DNA of 28,589 nucleotides from IMG/VR virus record IMGVR_UViG_3300010391_000105, positions 1-28,589 of that record. The stretch is one strand, 5' to 3'. Positions 5,954 through 24,125 of the stretch are shown piece after piece. Made by a program: the position numbers and the translations under genes. Each line of letters starts with the position of its first letter. Within the stretch, counting starts at the first letter, position 1. Below the pieces are notes generated by a model. It saw only the letters and a program-made list of their open reading frames with translations, searched no databases and was not told the origin of the DNA. Origin of the DNA: a virus.

Positions 5954-8919
5954 TGCCTATCATGTGGGCGACGATCTTCATCATGTTGGCAATTAGCGCG
6001 GCCTTTGGAGGGGCCGCCTATCTACTCCGGCCCAAGGCGGCGGGCGGGGCCAAGCCGAACCTCGGCGACTTCCGGGTTGCGACCACGACGGAAGATAGAA
6101 CCATCCCGACATTCTGGGGCAAGTGCCTGCTCGATTCGCCGAACCTGATTTACGACGGCAACTTGTCCACGGATGAAGACACGATTGGCGATCAAGTCAT
6201 AAACTATTCCTACGTGCTTACCTTCCAGTATGGCCTCGGCTTGGGGCAGATTGATAACGTCCACGAGATTCGCTTTGAGAACAAGGTGGCGTGGACGGGG
6301 ACGGCGGCGGGCGGCGGGACAGTCACGATTGCCAACACCGCGCTCTTCGGCGACAAAGGATTCGGCGGCGGTGTGTCGGGCATCGTCGATGTCATGGATG
6401 GAAACTCATCGCAGGCCGTGAACTCGTACCTGACAGAGGCGACGATTGATGCGCTATACAACGTAAAGAGCATCACCGAAACCGCGCCGCCGGTATCACC
6501 AACGCACGGCGATGAATATATTCCTGCTTCGCCAGCAACCGGAGCATGGGCTAACCATGAAAATGATCTTATGATTTGGTTGCAACCCATACCGGCGCTG
6601 GCGGGTGCGTGGAATGTGGCAATCGCGGATACTGCTTTACCTTTAGGATTGACTGTCGCCATCGAAGATGAATCAAACGCGATTTATGCGTGGGACGGTA
6701 CGGCATGGCTGAACACAGCCACGGGAAACCTCAACCTGCATCCGAACTACCGGCACATGTCAACGCTGGTATTCCGGCGCGACCCGACTCCGCAGGCTGA
6801 CGGCAGCCCGTCGGATTCCACCGGCTTCAATGTTGGCGAGGGCGCGTATCTCCGGCCCATGTCCTGCGTCGCCAGCAAGTATCCGAAGTCAAACGCTTTT
6901 GGGACCGCGAACGCGGCTTACCTGACCGCAACCCGGCACCTGGTGGGCGACGATGCAAACCCGATGGAGATTCTGTACGAGGTGTTGACGGGCACGACGT
7001 ATCGCAACGGGACGCTTGAGACGCTGCCCTACGGCGCGGGCATTCCGGCTGCGAACATTGACGGCGCGGGATTCCTGGCCGCCGCCAACACGCTCTTTAC
7101 CGAGACGCTCGGCATGTCGATGCAGTGGAACACGCGGGGCCATGCGCGTGAGGTTGTGGACGAGGTCATGCAAACTGTGGGCGGCATCCTGTATACCGAC
7201 GTGTCCACCGGCAAAATCACCGTGGTATTGGCGCGGGCGGATTACACCGTCGCCTCGCTGGAACTTTTTGACGAGTCCAACGCGATTGAAGTGCCGAACA
7301 TGAGCCGGGGCGCATGGAATGAGACGGCGAACCAGGTCAACGTGAGTTACATCGACCGGGCGGCGGGATACATCGAACGCACGGCGAAAGCGTTTGACCT
7401 GGCGAATAGAACCTTGCAGGGCCGTACCGAATCCGTCGCCGTCACCTACGCGGGCATTACCACGGCGGCGAACGCGGCGATACTTGCCACGCGGGAAATC
7501 AAAGAGACTTCGTACCCGTACTGGCGCGGCGAGATTATCGTCAACCGTGAGGCGTGGGACATGACGCCGGGTGACGTGTTCAAGTTCTCGTGGGCGCGGT
7601 ACGGCATCGTGACGATTGTCATGCGGGTGCTTACCATCAAGTACGGTACGCCGCTGGACGGCAAGATCGTAATCGCCGTCGCGCAAGACGTGTTCAGTTT
7701 GCCCGATAGTATCTATGCCGCTGTGCCGGGTATCGGCTGGGTGAATCCCGTCCGCCGTCCAGAGCCAGTGCTGAATCAGGACGCATTTGAATTGCCGTTC
7801 TGGTTTTGGCTGAATAAAAATGTAATGGCGCAACTCGGAGACGTAAAGTCAGACCAGGAGCGGATCATCTTTTGCGCCGAACGTCCCAACTTATCATGCA
7901 CTCATTTTAAAATCGGCCTATCATCCACCAGCGACGGCGACCTAGACATCCGCGACGTTAAAGCGATGTTCTGTCCGACCGCGACCCTGGCGAGCAGCTA
8001 CGTGGTGGACACAAATCCCGTGGACGGAAGCGGCACCCTGGTGGTGGAGGGCGGCATCGGCATGGACCGCATCTCCAACGTGTTCAATTATGGCGCGGAC
8101 TTGAACCTCTCTATCATCGGTTCGCGGGGTACTTTCCCCGATAGTCAATCAATCGAGTTCGTGACCTTCCAGACCATTTCAACGTCCACCAGCGTGGCCG
8201 GGCAATATCTGCTTGTGAACGTGACACGCGGTCTATTCCATACGCCGCCGATGGATCACGCGAGCGGTACGCGCATCTGGTTTGTCGGGCGCGGTGGCAC
8301 GATTGTGGACATACCTTTTGACCATCTCTCGACATCTTTTATGGTGGCTCTGCCAGTGACGGCGCGTGGCGTGCTGGAGTCCAGTATGGCGGCGGAGTTG
8401 GAAGTCAATACGCCGGATTTTTCAATTTCGCGCGCGCCCTATCCGCCTGGCAAGGTGCAACTCAATGGGCAGTATTATCCCGCCGCGCTACCAGCTGACC
8501 AGACCGTCACACTTACTTGGGAGCATCGCAACCGACTACATCAAAAAGGATTCGTGGCGCAAAACTCAACCGACGTGATTGAGGGTGCGGAAAAGAGCAG
8601 CACGGCCTATACCGTATTCCCCGACTTGGCCTATTATGCGACGTGGCGCATGCGCCAGAACAACGGCAGTACGTATCTCGGCTCAACGGCGTTTACCCGC
8701 ACTGGCAAGAGTTTCGCATTACCGTCTACGGCGCGGGATGCCTTGGGCGCAGTATGCGACCACCTCGATTATGAGCTATCAGCATGGCGAGCTGATTCCA
8801 AGGATGGCACAACCGGAACTATCGCAGGTTATCTATCTTTCCCCCAGGTCCGCACCGTGGACCTTGCCGGTTGGGGTTTGCATTATGGCGAGTATTACGG
8901 CGGACCGCCTCCGCCTTAA
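5953..8919 (+). CDS. Central tail-tip / host-specificity protein (J- or megatron-like)
   Basis: This is the largest gene in the window at 988 residues, overlapping the hub gene by one base (TAATG). It has a hydrophobic N-terminal segment (about residues 4-25), then TTEDRTIPTFWGK, the entry motif of phage tail-tip proteins. Residues about 335-580 resemble the PhageTail_3-type core (TATRHLVGDDANP, REVVDEVMQTVGGILYTD, PGDVFKFSWARYGI). Residues about 825-930 form a fibronectin-III-like domain with the phage signature LTWEHRNRLHQK. This family forms the cone at the tail tip and contacts the host surface. The C-terminal part should therefore determine receptor range. Confidence 0.85.
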   Translation: MPIMWATIFIMLAISAAFGGAAYLLRPKAAGGAKPNLGDFRVATTTEDRTIPTFWGKCLLDSPNLIYDGNLSTDEDTIGDQVINYSYVLTFQYGLGLGQIDNVHEIRFENKVAWTGTAAGGGTVTIANTALFGDKGFGGGVSGIVDVMDGNSSQAVNSYLTEATIDALYNVKSITETAPPVSPTHGDEYIPASPATGAWANHENDLMIWLQPIPALAGAWNVAIADTALPLGLTVAIEDESNAIYAWDGTAWLNTATGNLNLHPNYRHMSTLVFRRDPTPQADGSPSDSTGFNVGEGAYLRPMSCVASKYPKSNAFGTANAAYLTATRHLVGDDANPMEILYEVLTGTTYRNGTLETLPYGAGIPAANIDGAGFLAAANTLFTETLGMSMQWNTRGHAREVVDEVMQTVGGILYTDVSTGKITVVLARADYTVASLELFDESNAIEVPNMSRGAWNETANQVNVSYIDRAAGYIERTAKAFDLANRTLQGRTESVAVTYAGITTAANAAILATREIKETSYPYWRGEIIVNREAWDMTPGDVFKFSWARYGIVTIVMRVLTIKYGTPLDGKIVIAVAQDVFSLPDSIYAAVPGIGWVNPVRRPEPVLNQDAFELPFWFWLNKNVMAQLGDVKSDQERIIFCAERPNLSCTHFKIGLSSTSDGDLDIRDVKAMFCPTATLASSYVVDTNPVDGSGTLVVEGGIGMDRISNVFNYGADLNLSIIGSRGTFPDSQSIEFVTFQTISTSTSVAGQYLLVNVTRGLFHTPPMDHASGTRIWFVGRGGTIVDIPFDHLSTSFMVALPVTARGVLESSMAAELEVNTPDFSISRAPYPPGKVQLNGQYYPAALPADQTVTLTWEHRNRLHQKGFVAQNSTDVIEGAEKSSTAYTVFPDLAYYATWRMRQNNGSTYLGSTAFTRTGKSFALPSTARDALGAVCDHLDYELSAWRADSKDGTTGTIAGYLSFPQVRTVDLAGWGLHYGEYYGGPPPP

Positions 8920-14017: not shown

Positions 14018-14019
14018 CG

Positions 14020-14038
14020 ATCCTACGCACCGTAGGAT
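14020..14038 (+). terminator. Hairpin directly after the late operon
   Basis: ATCCTAC (14020-14026) pairs perfectly with GTAGGAT (14032-14038) around a 5-nt loop, beginning 3 bp after the last stop codon. It has no T-run and probably works together with the stronger terminator just downstream, or stabilises the 3' end of the late mRNA. Confidence 0.55.
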
Positions 14039-14053
14039 TACCTCCTGAAGATG

Positions 14054-14085
14054 CCCCCGCTCACCCAAGGGCGGGGGACTTTTTC
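14054..14085 (+). terminator. Rho-independent terminator of the late (tail-lysis) operon
   Basis: CCCCCGC (14054-14060) pairs with GCGGGGG (14071-14077), followed by AC and a T-rich tract (TTTTTCTTTCC). The stem is all G-C, and the T-tract follows at once, as in an intrinsic terminator. It separates the late operon from the cassette starting at 14212. Confidence 0.8.
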
Positions 14086-15348: not shown

Positions 15349-15557
15349 CCCGCGCCGAACGCAAGGCGGCCGCCAAGCTCCTGGGCGCTGCCGGCGGCAA
15401 AGCCCGCGTGGCCAACATGACGCCGGAGGAACTCTCCGCGGCCAACAGTAAGGCGGGCCTGGCGCGGGCCACGGCGCTCACGCCGGAGCGGCGACGCGAG
15501 ATCGCCATGATGGGGGTAGCGGCGAGGGCAAAGAAACGGGCTAAAACTCGACGTTGA
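15345..15557 (+). CDS. Small basic Ala/Lys-rich protein
   Basis: This 70-residue protein overlaps the metallopeptidase stop (ATGA). It consists of repeated short units (GGKARVANMTPEELSAANSK, then AGLARATALTPERRREIA, then ARAKKRAKTRR), each with a Gly/Ala-Arg turn and a Thr-Pro-Glu-capped helix. Small proteins of this kind occur on plasmids and phages and are probably nucleic-acid-binding; that is inference from charge. Its last 17 bp overlap the 3' end of the integrase gene on the other strand. Confidence 0.65.
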   Translation: MTRAERKAAAKLLGAAGGKARVANMTPEELSAANSKAGLARATALTPERRREIAMMGVAARAKKRAKTRR

Positions 15558-16542
15558 TGCGGTCAGGTGCAAGGTGGGCGTAAATCTGCGTCGTTCGCGG
15601 GTCGCTGTGGCCTAGTAGCGCCTGGACCTCGTAAAGTGACCGCCCAGCCTGGACTAGCGAGGCGGCAAACGTGTGCCGCAGATTATGGGGAGAGATTGGT
15701 TTGACGTCACCCCTTTTGACTGCGCTGGAGAATGCCTTCCGTAGACTGACCCGACCACGTTGGATGCGTCTAAGTGCTTTGGGGGCAATAAGATACCCGT
15801 GTTCTCTATAGGGTTTTAGTAACATTCGCAGGCGACTGTGGATGGGGATAACCCGCGGTTTCCCTGATTTAGGCGTGAAATGGACGTCACCGACCGTCAG
15901 CGTTCCCCGCTGCCAATCCAACCACTCCCACCGGCAGGCGGTGATCTCTCCCGACCGGAGACCCGCGAAGATGCCCAAGGCGAGGAAGCGGACGAGGTCC
16001 AAGTTCCCGTCGGCGGCGGTCAAGAGCCGGTCAATCTCGCTCGCTTCGAGGAAGATCGGGAGTGCCTTGGGCACTTTGGGCCGCTGGACCCCACGGCAAG
16101 GGTTGGACGACAGGTAGCCCCATTCCACGGCCCGCTGGAAGAAACCGGAAAGATGGCCCAGGTAGCTACACACCGTCTTGGGCTTCAGGGCGGCGAGTAG
16201 ATGTGTTGTCCACGCTTCCACGTCCGCTCTACGCACTCTGGACACGTCGCCCGTGTACCAGGAGGCCCACCGCTGCCAGACATGGGCGTCAGTGCCCCGC
16301 GTAGACTCCCGCTTCCGGCCTATGCTCCACGCCTCGTAACGGCTCCAGAACGCCTCCAGCGTCACCCGCACTGTCCCCACGGCCACGCCGCTGAGTAGGT
16401 CGCGCTCCCGATTCACCCGCATCTGTTCGGCGGCCCCGGCGTTCCGAGTGCCCGTGCAGGAGCGAAACCGGCGTCCCTGTTCGCGCCAATTGAGCTGCCA
16501 ATAACCGTCACACCTTTTATATCTGGTGACGCGGATTACCAT
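15541..16542 (-). CDS. int: Tyrosine integrase
   Basis: This 333-residue protein carries all catalytic residues of the family: Arg196 in AGLRSGEI, Lys225/Lys228 in TPKSGKPR, His286 and Arg289 in PHNLRHTF, His312 in LLGHSDPRTT, and the nucleophile Tyr321 in QIYAHL. Residues about 1-50 form an arm-binding-type N-terminal domain (YWQLNWREQGRRFRS), and about 60-155 a core-binding domain. It catalyses integration and excision at the attP just upstream. No strong ribosome-binding site precedes ATG 16542. Arm-type repeats begin 4 bp upstream, so integrase may limit its own expression. Confidence 0.95.
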   Translation of the reverse strand: MVIRVTRYKRCDGYWQLNWREQGRRFRSCTGTRNAGAAEQMRVNRERDLLSGVAVGTVRVTLEAFWSRYEAWSIGRKRESTRGTDAHVWQRWASWYTGDVSRVRRADVEAWTTHLLAALKPKTVCSYLGHLSGFFQRAVEWGYLSSNPCRGVQRPKVPKALPIFLEASEIDRLLTAADGNLDLVRFLALGIFAGLRSGEITACRWEWLDWQRGTLTVGDVHFTPKSGKPRVIPIHSRLRMLLKPYREHGYLIAPKALRRIQRGRVSLRKAFSSAVKRGDVKPISPHNLRHTFAASLVQAGRSLYEVQALLGHSDPRTTQIYAHLAPDRINVEF

Positions 16543-16622: not shown

Positions 16623-16650
16623 TGGTGGAGCTGGAGGGGATTGAACCCTC
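16623..16650 (-). other. attP: attP core: 3' end of a tRNA or tmRNA gene
   Basis: Read on the minus strand, these 28 bp are a perfect T-arm plus acceptor end: GAGGG, loop TTCAATC, CCCTC, then CAGCTCC, A and CCA. The stem is fully complementary and the T-loop fits TTCRANY. The CAGCTCCACCA ending is that of tmRNA (ssrA) in many bacteria, a common phage integration target; the upstream bases do not give a complete tRNA. Integration here would restore the 3' end of the host gene. Identity may extend further towards 16690. Confidence 0.75.
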
Positions 16651-16745
16651 GGCCTCTAGAGTGCGATTCTCCCCGAGACGGTTTGTCTAACCTCAACGAG
16701 ACCGGGAGCTTGCCGGAAGTGACTTGAATCGACTAGGGTTAGGCA

Positions 16746-18017: not shown

Positions 18018-18274
18018 CCAGACCTACCGCCCGGTCGGGAGAACCGGGAACATCTTCCGTATCCGCAAGCAGCCGGGGAGCCGTTTACCTCCCCGGCCTC
18101 GCCCTCACGCACGAGGCGATGTGGGTGGAACGCGGCGGGCTGGAGCGCGAGGCGCTGGAGTGCGAATTTCTTTATCCGTTCGCGCCGTCCACGTTGGGCT
18201 GGCCGTCGCAGGACGGGTACGACGCCTTGCGGGACATGAGCGCCGCGCTGGAGGCGGCGGGAAACATAGTCTAA
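18014..18274 (+). CDS. Hypothetical early protein
   Basis: This 86-residue protein starts at ATG 18014 (ATGA overlap). The N-terminal 28 residues are Ser/Thr/Gly/Arg-rich and probably disordered. The rest (LPGLALTHEAMWVERGGLER, then EALECEFLYP) could form a small helical domain. No family was recognised. Co-expression with Cro and the Xis-like protein suggests an early role. Confidence 0.6.
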   Translation: MTRPTARSGEPGTSSVSASSRGAVYLPGLALTHEAMWVERGGLEREALECEFLYPFAPSTLGWPSQDGYDALRDMSAALEAAGNIV

Positions 18275-18284
18275 GGAGAAATAG

Positions 18285-18815
18285 ATGGGCGCAGACATGT
18301 CCGACTGGCGGTGGGAACTTCGTATGTCGGAGTACACGTATCCGCCGATGACCCAGAAACAGGAGCGCGAGTACCGCGAAAATGTCCGCACGCAGAATGA
18401 GAACAGACAGATAGGATCGAACGTCACGAACTGTACATCGACGGGGCCGATCACGAACGCCAGCATCGAGAACATACAAAATGAGAACCCTACCATGGCC
18501 GAAACCGAAAGTCAAGCCCGGGACCGCGCTGGCACTCAACCGACTTGGATACTAGCGGGCGACATGATCAACCTCTTGCGAAGCGCCTTTGACCGGACCA
18601 CGCCGGCTGAGGATGCGGAGTGGCGGCGTGCGTTCCGGGCGCTGGAGGCGCGGTATCGCGCAGCGGTCAACGAGGCGATGGAAAAGATAATCGAGGAGAA
18701 CCGGCCAGCGAAAATAGGGGACACACTGCCAGCCAATTCGCCGTGTTATGACGATCGCGGCGTTTGCCAAGGGCCGCCGCCGAAAATGTTCATCATTAGG
18801 AGGGACGATGAGTAA
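18285..18815 (+). CDS. Hypothetical early protein with disordered N-terminus
   Basis: This 176-residue protein is preceded by AAGGAGAAATAG. The N-terminal 70 residues are polar and Asn/Gln/Glu-rich (ENVRTQNENRQIGSNVTNCT) and look disordered. From about residue 80 there is a helical domain (GDMINLLRSAFDRTTPAEDA, then EWRRAFRALEARYRAAVNEA). An internal ATG at 18495 could yield the C-terminal domain alone. I recognise no family. It overlaps the next gene by 8 bp. Confidence 0.6.
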   Translation: MGADMSDWRWELRMSEYTYPPMTQKQEREYRENVRTQNENRQIGSNVTNCTSTGPITNASIENIQNENPTMAETESQARDRAGTQPTWILAGDMINLLRSAFDRTTPAEDAEWRRAFRALEARYRAAVNEAMEKIIEENRPAKIGDTLPANSPCYDDRGVCQGPPPKMFIIRRDDE

Positions 18816-22335: not shown

Positions 22336-22519
22336 GTATCTTGTCGTCCGAGATTTAGAGCAAGGCGGGTACGAGATTCTTGATGAATATGGCAACGAGC
22401 CCTTGGGCGATTACAACTATATGTTCCACAGTGAATGTACTGTCAATCTGGACCCTATCTGCCGATTGCTAAATACGCTGGCGTGGGCGGCGGTCAATAC
22501 CCTGGGGGTGGCGAAGTGA
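22328..22519 (+). CDS. Small hypothetical protein
   Basis: This 63-residue protein starts at ATG 22328 behind GGGAGGGGAG. It is acidic in the first half (VVRDLEQGGYEILDEYGNEP) and hydrophobic in the second (LLNTLAWAAVNTLGVAK). It ends with the GVAK/GTGA junction that recurs in this region. No family was recognised. Confidence 0.6.
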   Translation: MSKYLVVRDLEQGGYEILDEYGNEPLGDYNYMFHSECTVNLDPICRLLNTLAWAAVNTLGVAK

Positions 22520-22734
22520 AAAAGACGTTACAGATGCGATACGGAGGAGTGCTTGGACTGTTGGCGGAATGTGCCGTCCAAATGCGCCATACGCCTGAGT
22601 GCGAGGAATTGCGAGAGTCCATCGAACAGTGCTTCGCAGATGCGGAATGCGACGGATACCGCTGGAGGCGCGTCCTTGATAGTTTTGAACTGTGGTACGA
22701 CCCAATGCGGCCATCGCCGGGGGTGGCAAAGTGA
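22516..22734 (+). CDS. Small hypothetical protein
   Basis: This 72-residue protein starts at GTG 22516, inside the GTGA overlap. Helical segments with several cysteines (GLLAECAVQMRHTPECEELR, then CFADAECDGYRWRR) suggest a compact, possibly metal-binding domain. It ends in GVAK followed by GTGA, like its upstream neighbour. Confidence 0.6.
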   Translation: MKKTLQMRYGGVLGLLAECAVQMRHTPECEELRESIEQCFADAECDGYRWRRVLDSFELWYDPMRPSPGVAK

Positions 22735-22745
22735 AAGGGAAAGCG

Positions 22746-23006
22746 ATGAGCAAGCAGTTCCGAATTACATCCGGCGATTACGGCGACCACAGAGGCGTTG
22801 CATGGGATTTTGATAACGGGTCGTACCATGCGGTGATGCCAACCCTGTTCGCCGAGGTGGTAGTGCAGCGTTGCAACGCCCACGACGCGCTGGTAGCCGC
22901 GCTGGAGGCGATGCTGGAAGCGAATGACACGACGCAATCATACGCACCGGGACTTGCGCTTTTAGCGGAACGGCAAGCCCGCGCCGCGCTGGCGCTGGCG
23001 AAGTAA
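22746..23006 (+). CDS. Small hypothetical protein with C-terminal helix
   Basis: This 86-residue protein is called from ATG 22746 (preceded by AAAGGGAAAG); a GTG at 22731 in the upstream junction is also in frame. It has a beta-like N-terminus (FRITSGDYGDHRGVAWDFDN) and an Ala/Leu-rich C-terminal helix with the common phage segment HDALVAALEAMLEANDTTQ. It is the last gene before the 23088 terminator. Confidence 0.6.
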   Translation: MSKQFRITSGDYGDHRGVAWDFDNGSYHAVMPTLFAEVVVQRCNAHDALVAALEAMLEANDTTQSYAPGLALLAERQARAALALAK

Positions 23007-23087
23007 GGGCCTCCGGGGCCGATCCTGCCTGAGAGGAGGAGCATCAACACCCGGCGCGTGGGAGTCCAACAACAAACCGGAAAGCAG

Positions 23088-23112
23088 CCCGGCGACGCGC
23101 CCGCCGGGTTTT
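23088..23112 (+). terminator. Rho-independent terminator inside the early region
   Basis: CCCGGCG (23088-23094) pairs with CGCCGGG (23102-23108) around a 7-nt loop, followed by TTTT and CCTG. It lies 82 bp after a stop codon. A Shine-Dalgarno-like GAGAGGAGGA (23031-23040) upstream has no start codon at a usable distance. Termination would be partial or regulated, because similar accessory genes continue downstream in the same direction. Confidence 0.65.
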
Positions 23113-23122
23113 CCTGATTCTC

Positions 23123-23222
23123 GTCGGCGGTTCGGGTGCCTCCCGCCCGACTGTACGGAGTCCAGGCTTGGGGATTGGGCCGCTGCGGACGGCCCCTCAA
23201 ACTATCCCCAAGCGCCGCCGAC
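23123..23222 (+). ncRNA. Strongly folded RNA element, multi-branched, upstream of 23252
   Basis: A closing stem pairs GTCGGCGG (23123-23130) with CCGCCGAC (23215-23222). Inside it, CGGG (23133-23136) pairs with CCCG (23142-23145), GACT (23149-23152) with AGTC (23159-23162), and a long arm pairs CTTGGGGAT (23167-23175) with ATCCCCAAG (23204-23212). An inner stem GGGCCG/CGGCCC (23177-23182/23190-23195) lies within that arm. All arms fit together without conflict. The element sits between a terminator and the AGGAGGGG ribosome-binding site of the next gene and contains no gene. It may be a riboregulator, processed small RNA or mRNA leader. No known class was recognised. Confidence 0.5.
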
Positions 23223-23251
23223 AAGAGACAGGAACACAACAGGAGGGGAAC

Positions 23252-23500
23252 ATGCACATCTGTTTACACGATTTCGACAGATGGATGGAAGAGACCGACA
23301 AGTGGCGGCAGATGGTCGAGGAGCACGAGAAGCGCCTGGCCGCGGTTGAGCAGCCGAAGCCCGCGCCCGGCACCGTGACGATCCAGTTGGCCCCCAAGGA
23401 AGCCAAAAAGTTGAAGCGCCAACTTAAAGACGAGGATTTGTCTGAATTAGACATCGTTGACGCGGTGCTTTTGCGCGTGCTGGTGGCGGCGAAACCATGA
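23252..23500 (+). CDS. Hypothetical coiled-coil protein
   Basis: This 82-residue protein starts at ATG 23252 behind AGGAGGGG, 29 bp after the folded RNA element. An in-frame ATG at 23168 would start inside that structure. It has a helical, charged N-terminal half (DRWMEETDKWRQMVEEHEKR), a Pro/Ala linker, and a helical C-terminal part (KEAKKLKRQLKDEDLSELDI). It ends at an ATGA overlap, and resembles genes with a variant of the VAK junction (VAAKP). Confidence 0.65.
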   Translation: MHICLHDFDRWMEETDKWRQMVEEHEKRLAAVEQPKPAPGTVTIQLAPKEAKKLKRQLKDEDLSELDIVDAVLLRVLVAAKP

Positions 23501-23748
23501 GGGACCGGAATAAGGATTTAACGTTGCGAAGGGAAATGCGGACCCAAGGGCCAAGACCCGTGTACGGCGGCGTGGTGGGAACACGCTCCGATATCGACGC
23601 GAATACGGAAGCCCTCAAGGCGCGGCTCCGCATGACGCCGGATGAGCAGGCCAATTATCGGGGCTGCCGTACCGTGTGGGAGCACTTGAAAAGCGTACAG
23701 CGCATGTGCAACTACATCGCCAGAGTGCAGGAGGAGATAGAGAAATGA
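23497..23748 (+). CDS. Small hypothetical protein
   Basis: This 83-residue basic protein starts within ATGA. The sequence (LRREMRTQGPRPVYGGVVGT, then TEALKARLRMTPDEQANYRG) is helical with a proline-rich start. I recognise no family. It is overlapped at both ends by its neighbours and is therefore probably translated in step with them. Confidence 0.6.
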   Translation: MRDRNKDLTLRREMRTQGPRPVYGGVVGTRSDIDANTEALKARLRMTPDEQANYRGCRTVWEHLKSVQRMCNYIARVQEEIEK

Positions 23749-24125
23749 AGATCGGCGACATCGTTTATATTCAACGTCACAAGCACGTGTACGCTGCCAG
23801 CGTGCTATGGGCCGGGGACATCGCGGGCAACGAGAATGGCGAAGGCACGATGAATGACCCGTGTTACAGACCGGTCGCGCTGGTAGAGTCACGGAGCGTA
23901 AATGGACGCAGGCTGGTAGAATTAATCGCGGTCCACCGGAACCGGGACTGCCCTGAGCGCAGCATCCGGCGCACCGAGCGGGCCGCGCTGAAATCCGCGT
24001 TGCGGTGGCTGGCGAGCGTCCAGTACGAACTCCAGGGCGAACTGAAACGCGCCGAATCGCTGGAAGAGGATGCGGCGGCGCTGCGGAAGCGGATGAAGGA
24101 CCTGGAGTTGCGCCATGCCGTGTGA
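23745..24125 (+). CDS. Hypothetical protein with a C-terminal coiled coil
   Basis: This 126-residue protein starts at ATG 23745 (ATGA). The N-terminal half looks like a small SH3-like beta domain (KIGDIVYIQRHKHVYAASVL). The C-terminal half is a coiled coil (QYELQGELKRAESLEEDAAA, then LRKRMKDLELRH). It overlaps the HNH endonuclease gene by 11 bp. Confidence 0.65.
   Translation: MKIGDIVYIQRHKHVYAASVLWAGDIAGNENGEGTMNDPCYRPVALVESRSVNGRRLVELIAVHRNRDCPERSIRRTERAALKSALRWLASVQYELQGELKRAESLEEDAAALRKRMKDLELRHAV

Follow-up and report, generated by a model that had tools for sequence, protein, structure and literature searches.

What might a long, strongly folded sequence be doing in a wide gap between the genes of a phage? 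The question is raised by the IMG/VR virus record IMGVR_UViG_3300010391_000105, analyzed over 28,589 bases (59% GC; hereafter the window), in which a non-coding gap at 23007-23251 holds an element (23108-23237) predicted to form a four-way junction on a long closing helix. Computed folds suggest that the element is a genuine, strongly folded orphan, and its status as an RNA gene is a prediction. At a guess, its job is most likely the dividing or insulating of a long phage messenger RNA (mRNA). The explanation preferred here, tentatively and with less than even confidence, is that of an intercistronic structured RNA element, serving processing or insulation, within the polycistronic early operon of a temperate phage.

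Fold of the intergenic element

An earlier note, made from the sequence letters, had described a 100-nucleotide (nt) multi-branched fold with a two-tier arm at 23123-23222. This was recovered on the plus strand as a closed structure with a minimum free energy of -58.1 kcal/mol (z-score -4.6), and none of 200 shuffled sequences was as stable. The 8 base pair (bp) closing stem proposed in that note is predicted at pair probabilities of 0.99–1.0, and the long arm at 0.84–1.0, but the closing helix does not end where it was drawn: an inverted repeat (23108-23130/23215-23237, 83% complementary) carries it through single mismatches to 23108/23237, giving an imperfect base of about 20 bp beneath the four-way junction. 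The four stems, given as 8, 4, 4 and 9 plus 6 bp, are indeed mutually compatible, but the arms are of 7, 3+2 and 10+6 bp. In the outer part of the closing helix, 12 of the 15 positions pair in register, a level matched at 36 of 28,459 window positions (about 0.1%), and this extension is likely, though not certain. The predicted parts, and the evidence used for each, are as follows.

23108..23237, plus strand (taken from the neighboring genes): whole structured element, imperfect outer helix and four-way junction (fold, pair probabilities)
23108..23122, plus strand: outer closing-helix extension, 5' side, pairing with 23223-23237 (inverted repeat, pair probabilities, register count)
23223..23237, plus strand: outer closing-helix extension, 3' side (inverted repeat, pair probabilities, register count)
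23123..23131, plus strand: closing stem, 5' side, 8 bp and one G-U (T23131-G23214 wobble) (fold, pair probabilities)
23214..23222, plus strand: closing stem, 3' side (fold, pair probabilities)
23132..23150, plus strand: first hairpin, 7 bp (23132-23138/23144-23150) with a 5-nt loop (pair probabilities 0.73–0.99)
23151..23165, plus strand: second hairpin, weak, 3+2 bp (pair probabilities 0.63–0.78)
23166..23213, plus strand: long arm, 10 bp (23166-23175/23204-23213) and 6 bp (23177-23182/23190-23195), interrupted on the 3' side by a bulge of 8 nt (inverted repeat, pair probabilities)

Longer stretches around the element were also over-stable, with z-scores of -4.9 for 23104-23242 (139 nt) and -5.6 for 23086-23237, which includes an upstream hairpin (described below), and in neither case did any of 1000 shuffles fold as well. 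When excess stability was ranked over 1,138 windows of 140 nt covering both strands, the element came first on the minus strand and third on the plus strand. The neat nesting of the perfect repeats, to which the earlier note had assigned a low probability by chance, proved less telling. Of 60 shuffled windows, 11 contained a perfect 8-bp repeat with a 9-bp one inside it, so that nesting by itself is weak evidence, and the excess stability is the stronger evidence.

Position in the operon and a proposed role

The right part of the window carries a block of same-strand genes in which the recombination genes for a PD-(D/E)XK exonuclease and RecT lie upstream of the gap, and those for an 82 amino acid (aa) protein, an HNH protein, a methyltransferase and RusA lie downstream of it. 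The genes of this operon otherwise mostly abut or overlap. By the present authors' own selection of genes, the 245-nt gap is the widest to the right of position 18,285, and a larger one (267 nt) is found further left, at 18018-18284. No coding signal is present in any frame of the gap, in agreement with the earlier view of it as gene-free. The frame past the stop codon of the upstream gene stays open, without coding signal, until a TGA at 23115-23117, and the sequence at 23031-23042, GAGAGGAGGAGC, strongly resembles a Shine-Dalgarno site but is not followed by an ATG. The strong ribosome-binding site expected downstream of the fold is present just outside it, together with the start codon:

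23241..23246, plus strand: Shine-Dalgarno site AGGAGG of the downstream gene (read in the sequence)
23252..23500, plus strand: downstream gene, ATG at 23252, 82 aa, no family, low-confidence helical model (family and relative searches, structure model)

No sigma-70-like promoter was found in a scan of 22500-23800, so the element is probably read within a longer message. This, the excess stability, which is the highest in the window, the outer helix in register, the non-coding gap, and the placement of the Shine-Dalgarno site and start codon outside the fold are the reasons for preferring an intercistronic RNA element. The computed support for it thus consists of fold stability, the non-coding gap, the same-strand neighbors and the Shine-Dalgarno site just beyond the fold; transcription, cutting by RNase III and an effect on expression are presumed. 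On transcription of the operon, nt 23108-23237 would form a four-way-junction RNA standing on its imperfect double-stranded base, which is a plausible target for RNase III. Cleavage there would free the junction RNA and part the exonuclease/RecT message from that of the 82-aa protein/HNH/methyltransferase/RusA block, and the downstream message would then begin just ahead of its own Shine-Dalgarno site. Left uncut, the fold could still act as a barrier that insulates the two halves of the operon. If the element is transcribed and processed, this would be an unusually elaborate use of folded RNA by a phage to divide or control an early message.

The RNase III sites of phage T7 are simple hairpins. 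They are processing sites between the early genes and divide a polycistronic message (PMC4858673), and the element resembles them, as a prediction, in being double-helical (the imperfect helix at its base) and in its intergenic position on a polycistronic early message. Unlike them it is larger and has a four-way junction, and its cleavage is presumed. A second comparison is with the small RNA DicF, which is excised from an mRNA of the Qin prophage (PMC10448788); here too a stretch of RNA lies within a polycistronic prophage message and may be an RNase III product, but DicF acts by base-pairing, no target of that kind is known for the element, and no sequence relation is expected. T7 and DicF are precedents of logic and not evidence of membership. 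The putRNA of phage HK022, of about 70 nt with two stem-loops and located downstream of an early promoter (PMC9378689), likewise folds within an early phage transcript, whereas the element has four helices over 130 nt and no promoter-like site in the scanned interval, and so does not fit the putRNA pattern.

Relatives and alternative explanations

The earlier note had recognized no known class, and this was borne out by Rfam 15, with no match across the window and a best hit in 22980-23300 far below the gathering threshold. ARAGORN reported no transfer RNA (tRNA) or transfer-messenger RNA (tmRNA) genes. Searching the gap against phages and plasmids with blastn gave chance-level pieces only, and the 8-kb region around it matched phages solely over 79 nt of the HNH gene. 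Patterns made from the arms had zero matches in IMG/VR and nine in the GTDB genomes, about the number expected by chance on a rough estimate, and on inspection all nine stretches were other palindromes or coding sequence. At the protein level, the five neighboring proteins searched singly and a RecT alignment found just distant RecT and methyltransferase relatives in IMG/VR, with no synteny; the 82-aa protein had no family match and no relative (IMG/VR included), and a tail protein had no match in 48 genomes and two, at 29% identity, in 398 further genomes. In the collections covered here, the phage has no close relatives.

A covariance model of the element (R1) was run on 57 sources, 5 loci, and the same 48 and 398 genomes. 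In the 57 sources the only meaningful match was the element itself, and the 48 genomes gave nothing. Three places were found, in 3 of the 398 genomes, all of them palindromic; the best belongs to a repeat family of which its genome (G342) holds about 40 copies. That family copy scored 41.5 bits and the reverse complement of the element itself 42.2 bits, so the score reflects shape and not homology, and the matches were rejected as homologues. The G342 repeat (L116-L148) is a dispersed palindromic sequence of about 115 nt in which a long inverted repeat, one small hairpin and one long arm meet at a three-way junction. A profile of 33 of its copies, run against the window with nhmmer, had its best place at 23167-23207 with a non-significant E value of 1.1; as the family was found through the element's own model, the location of this best place inside the element is not independent. 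Together, the reverse-complement score and the profile result argue against homology with the G342 family, to which the element might otherwise have been assigned as a stray copy.

Several points weigh against an intercistronic RNA element. The collections searched hold no homologue in which compensatory changes could be sought, and there is therefore no covariation. The outer helix is broken by three single mismatches, and in a harsher energy test of the outer flanks 4% of the shuffled ones, and 10% of those taken from the window, reached the same level. The minus strand folds about equally well, the element containing three G-U pairs on the plus strand and four on the minus strand, and the sequence is consequently silent on which strand is used, or on whether it acts as DNA. 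That it acts as an RNA rather than as a DNA palindrome is presumed, and the plus strand is assigned from the neighboring genes.

A DNA-level or mobile palindrome, either a single host-derived copy like a repetitive extragenic palindromic (REP) sequence or a miniature inverted-repeat transposable element (MITE), or else a phage palindrome for protein binding or replication, is the strongest rival, although in itself unlikely. A REP/MITE-like copy would have inverted ends of about 23 bp around its inner hairpins. In favor of this rival, both strands fold equally, the GC content of about 70% exceeds the 59% of the window, and the only model matches in the 398 genomes were palindromes of intergenic type, the best of them a repeat of similar plan. 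Like REP/REPIN and other dispersed palindromes, the element is an intergenic, GC-rich sequence of about 115–130 nt in which hairpins lie inside a long outer inverted repeat (PMC3733652, PMC3116915). It differs in being single-copy within the 28.6-kb phage record and in its four-way junction, the three-way junction of the G342 repeat being that of the sole family examined. REP sequences tagged with CGTC have this motif unpaired at one end, then a stem of 8–9 bp with a 4–5 nt loop; the element has a CGTC at 23122-23125, but its GTC forms base pairs within the long helix, and a short hairpin of this kind is absent after it. No terminal direct repeat of at least 7 nt, as a target-site duplication of a transposed MITE, flanks the element, shorter ones not being excluded. 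Integron attC sites have the ends RYYYAAC and GTTRRRY, and neither strand of the element, read by eye, has RYYYAAC at its 5' end.

Somewhat less likely is a stand-alone or excised trans-acting small RNA of about 100–130 nt, for example one that binds a host or defense protein or serves as a decoy. The fold is compact, closed and very stable with short linkers, and DicF, cut out of a prophage mRNA, sets a precedent (PMC10448788), but the element has no promoter-like site, no Rfam match and no conservation, and none of the adjacent genes was recognized as the partner of a known RNA-based system, in an annotation that did not include a search with a defense-gene library.

More doubtful is a cis-acting leader of the gene at 23252, with a ligand or protein as its binding partner and perhaps acting in concert with a switchable hairpin upstream. 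The element does sit directly before the Shine-Dalgarno site, and the region that the earlier note took for a terminator can adopt two mutually exclusive states:

23086..23116, plus strand: weak terminator-like hairpin (arms 23086-23094/23102-23110) with tail TTTTCCTG (sequence; no call by the terminator scanner)

The terminator itself did not hold up, as the scanner did not call the hairpin at 23086-23110 and its 3' arm pairs better, by about 8 kcal/mol (-32.2 vs -24.6 kcal/mol), with 23049-23056. Two copies of CCCGGCG vie for a single CGCCGGG (23049-23056, 23086-23094, 23102-23110), an attenuator-like arrangement. The four-way junction can nevertheless form alongside the terminator-like hairpin, which leaves no obvious switch between the two, and the attenuator reading was set aside. 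Nor does the junction sequester the Shine-Dalgarno site, whose mean predicted openness is about 0.44 with the element and 0.42–0.65 without parts of it, and for the protein encoded downstream neither a family nor a relative is known.

It is improbable that the element represents a phage RNA class not yet described, namely a nearly linker-free four-way junction freed from the early mRNA and binding a host or defense factor. As matters stand it is an orphan prediction, and a new RNA class cannot be claimed, because one sequence without a homologue cannot found one. Least likely is a functionless chance fold of GC-rich intergenic sequence, for although similar nested repeats arise in shuffled windows and no conservation is demonstrable, neither longer stretch was equaled by any of 1000 shuffles and the site is the top one among the 1,138 windows.

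Probable integration site and other features of the window

The left part of the window contains genes for the tape measure and tail proteins (PHROGs). An integrase-like gene lies on the minus strand at 15541-16542, so identified from its sequence and its similarity to genes beside tmRNA in other genomes. Adjoining it on the same strand is a tmRNA 3' end (16623-16690), with the sequence …GGCCGAGGGTTCAATCCCCTCCAGCTCCACCA; the tmRNA 3' end of the presumed host gene would be expected to read GAGGCCGAGGGTTCAATCCCCTCCAGCTCCACCA. The tmRNA model matched this stretch with E = 0.0002 in a short search, under the gathering score of the family, and 48 nt of it are 88% identical to places in four genomes, one of which (L101) is beside an integrase-like gene. 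The stretch is probably the attP core and, because a tmRNA 3' end adjoins the integrase, the phage probably integrates into the host tmRNA gene.

On the plus strand, a perfect small hairpin followed by a strong GC-rich stem and TTTTTC is found at 14018-14085, likely the end-of-operon terminator after lysis-type genes. The second most over-stable stretch, with an excess of -18.2 kcal/mol, is also on the plus strand, at 6504-6643, and lies within a tail gene of 988 aa.
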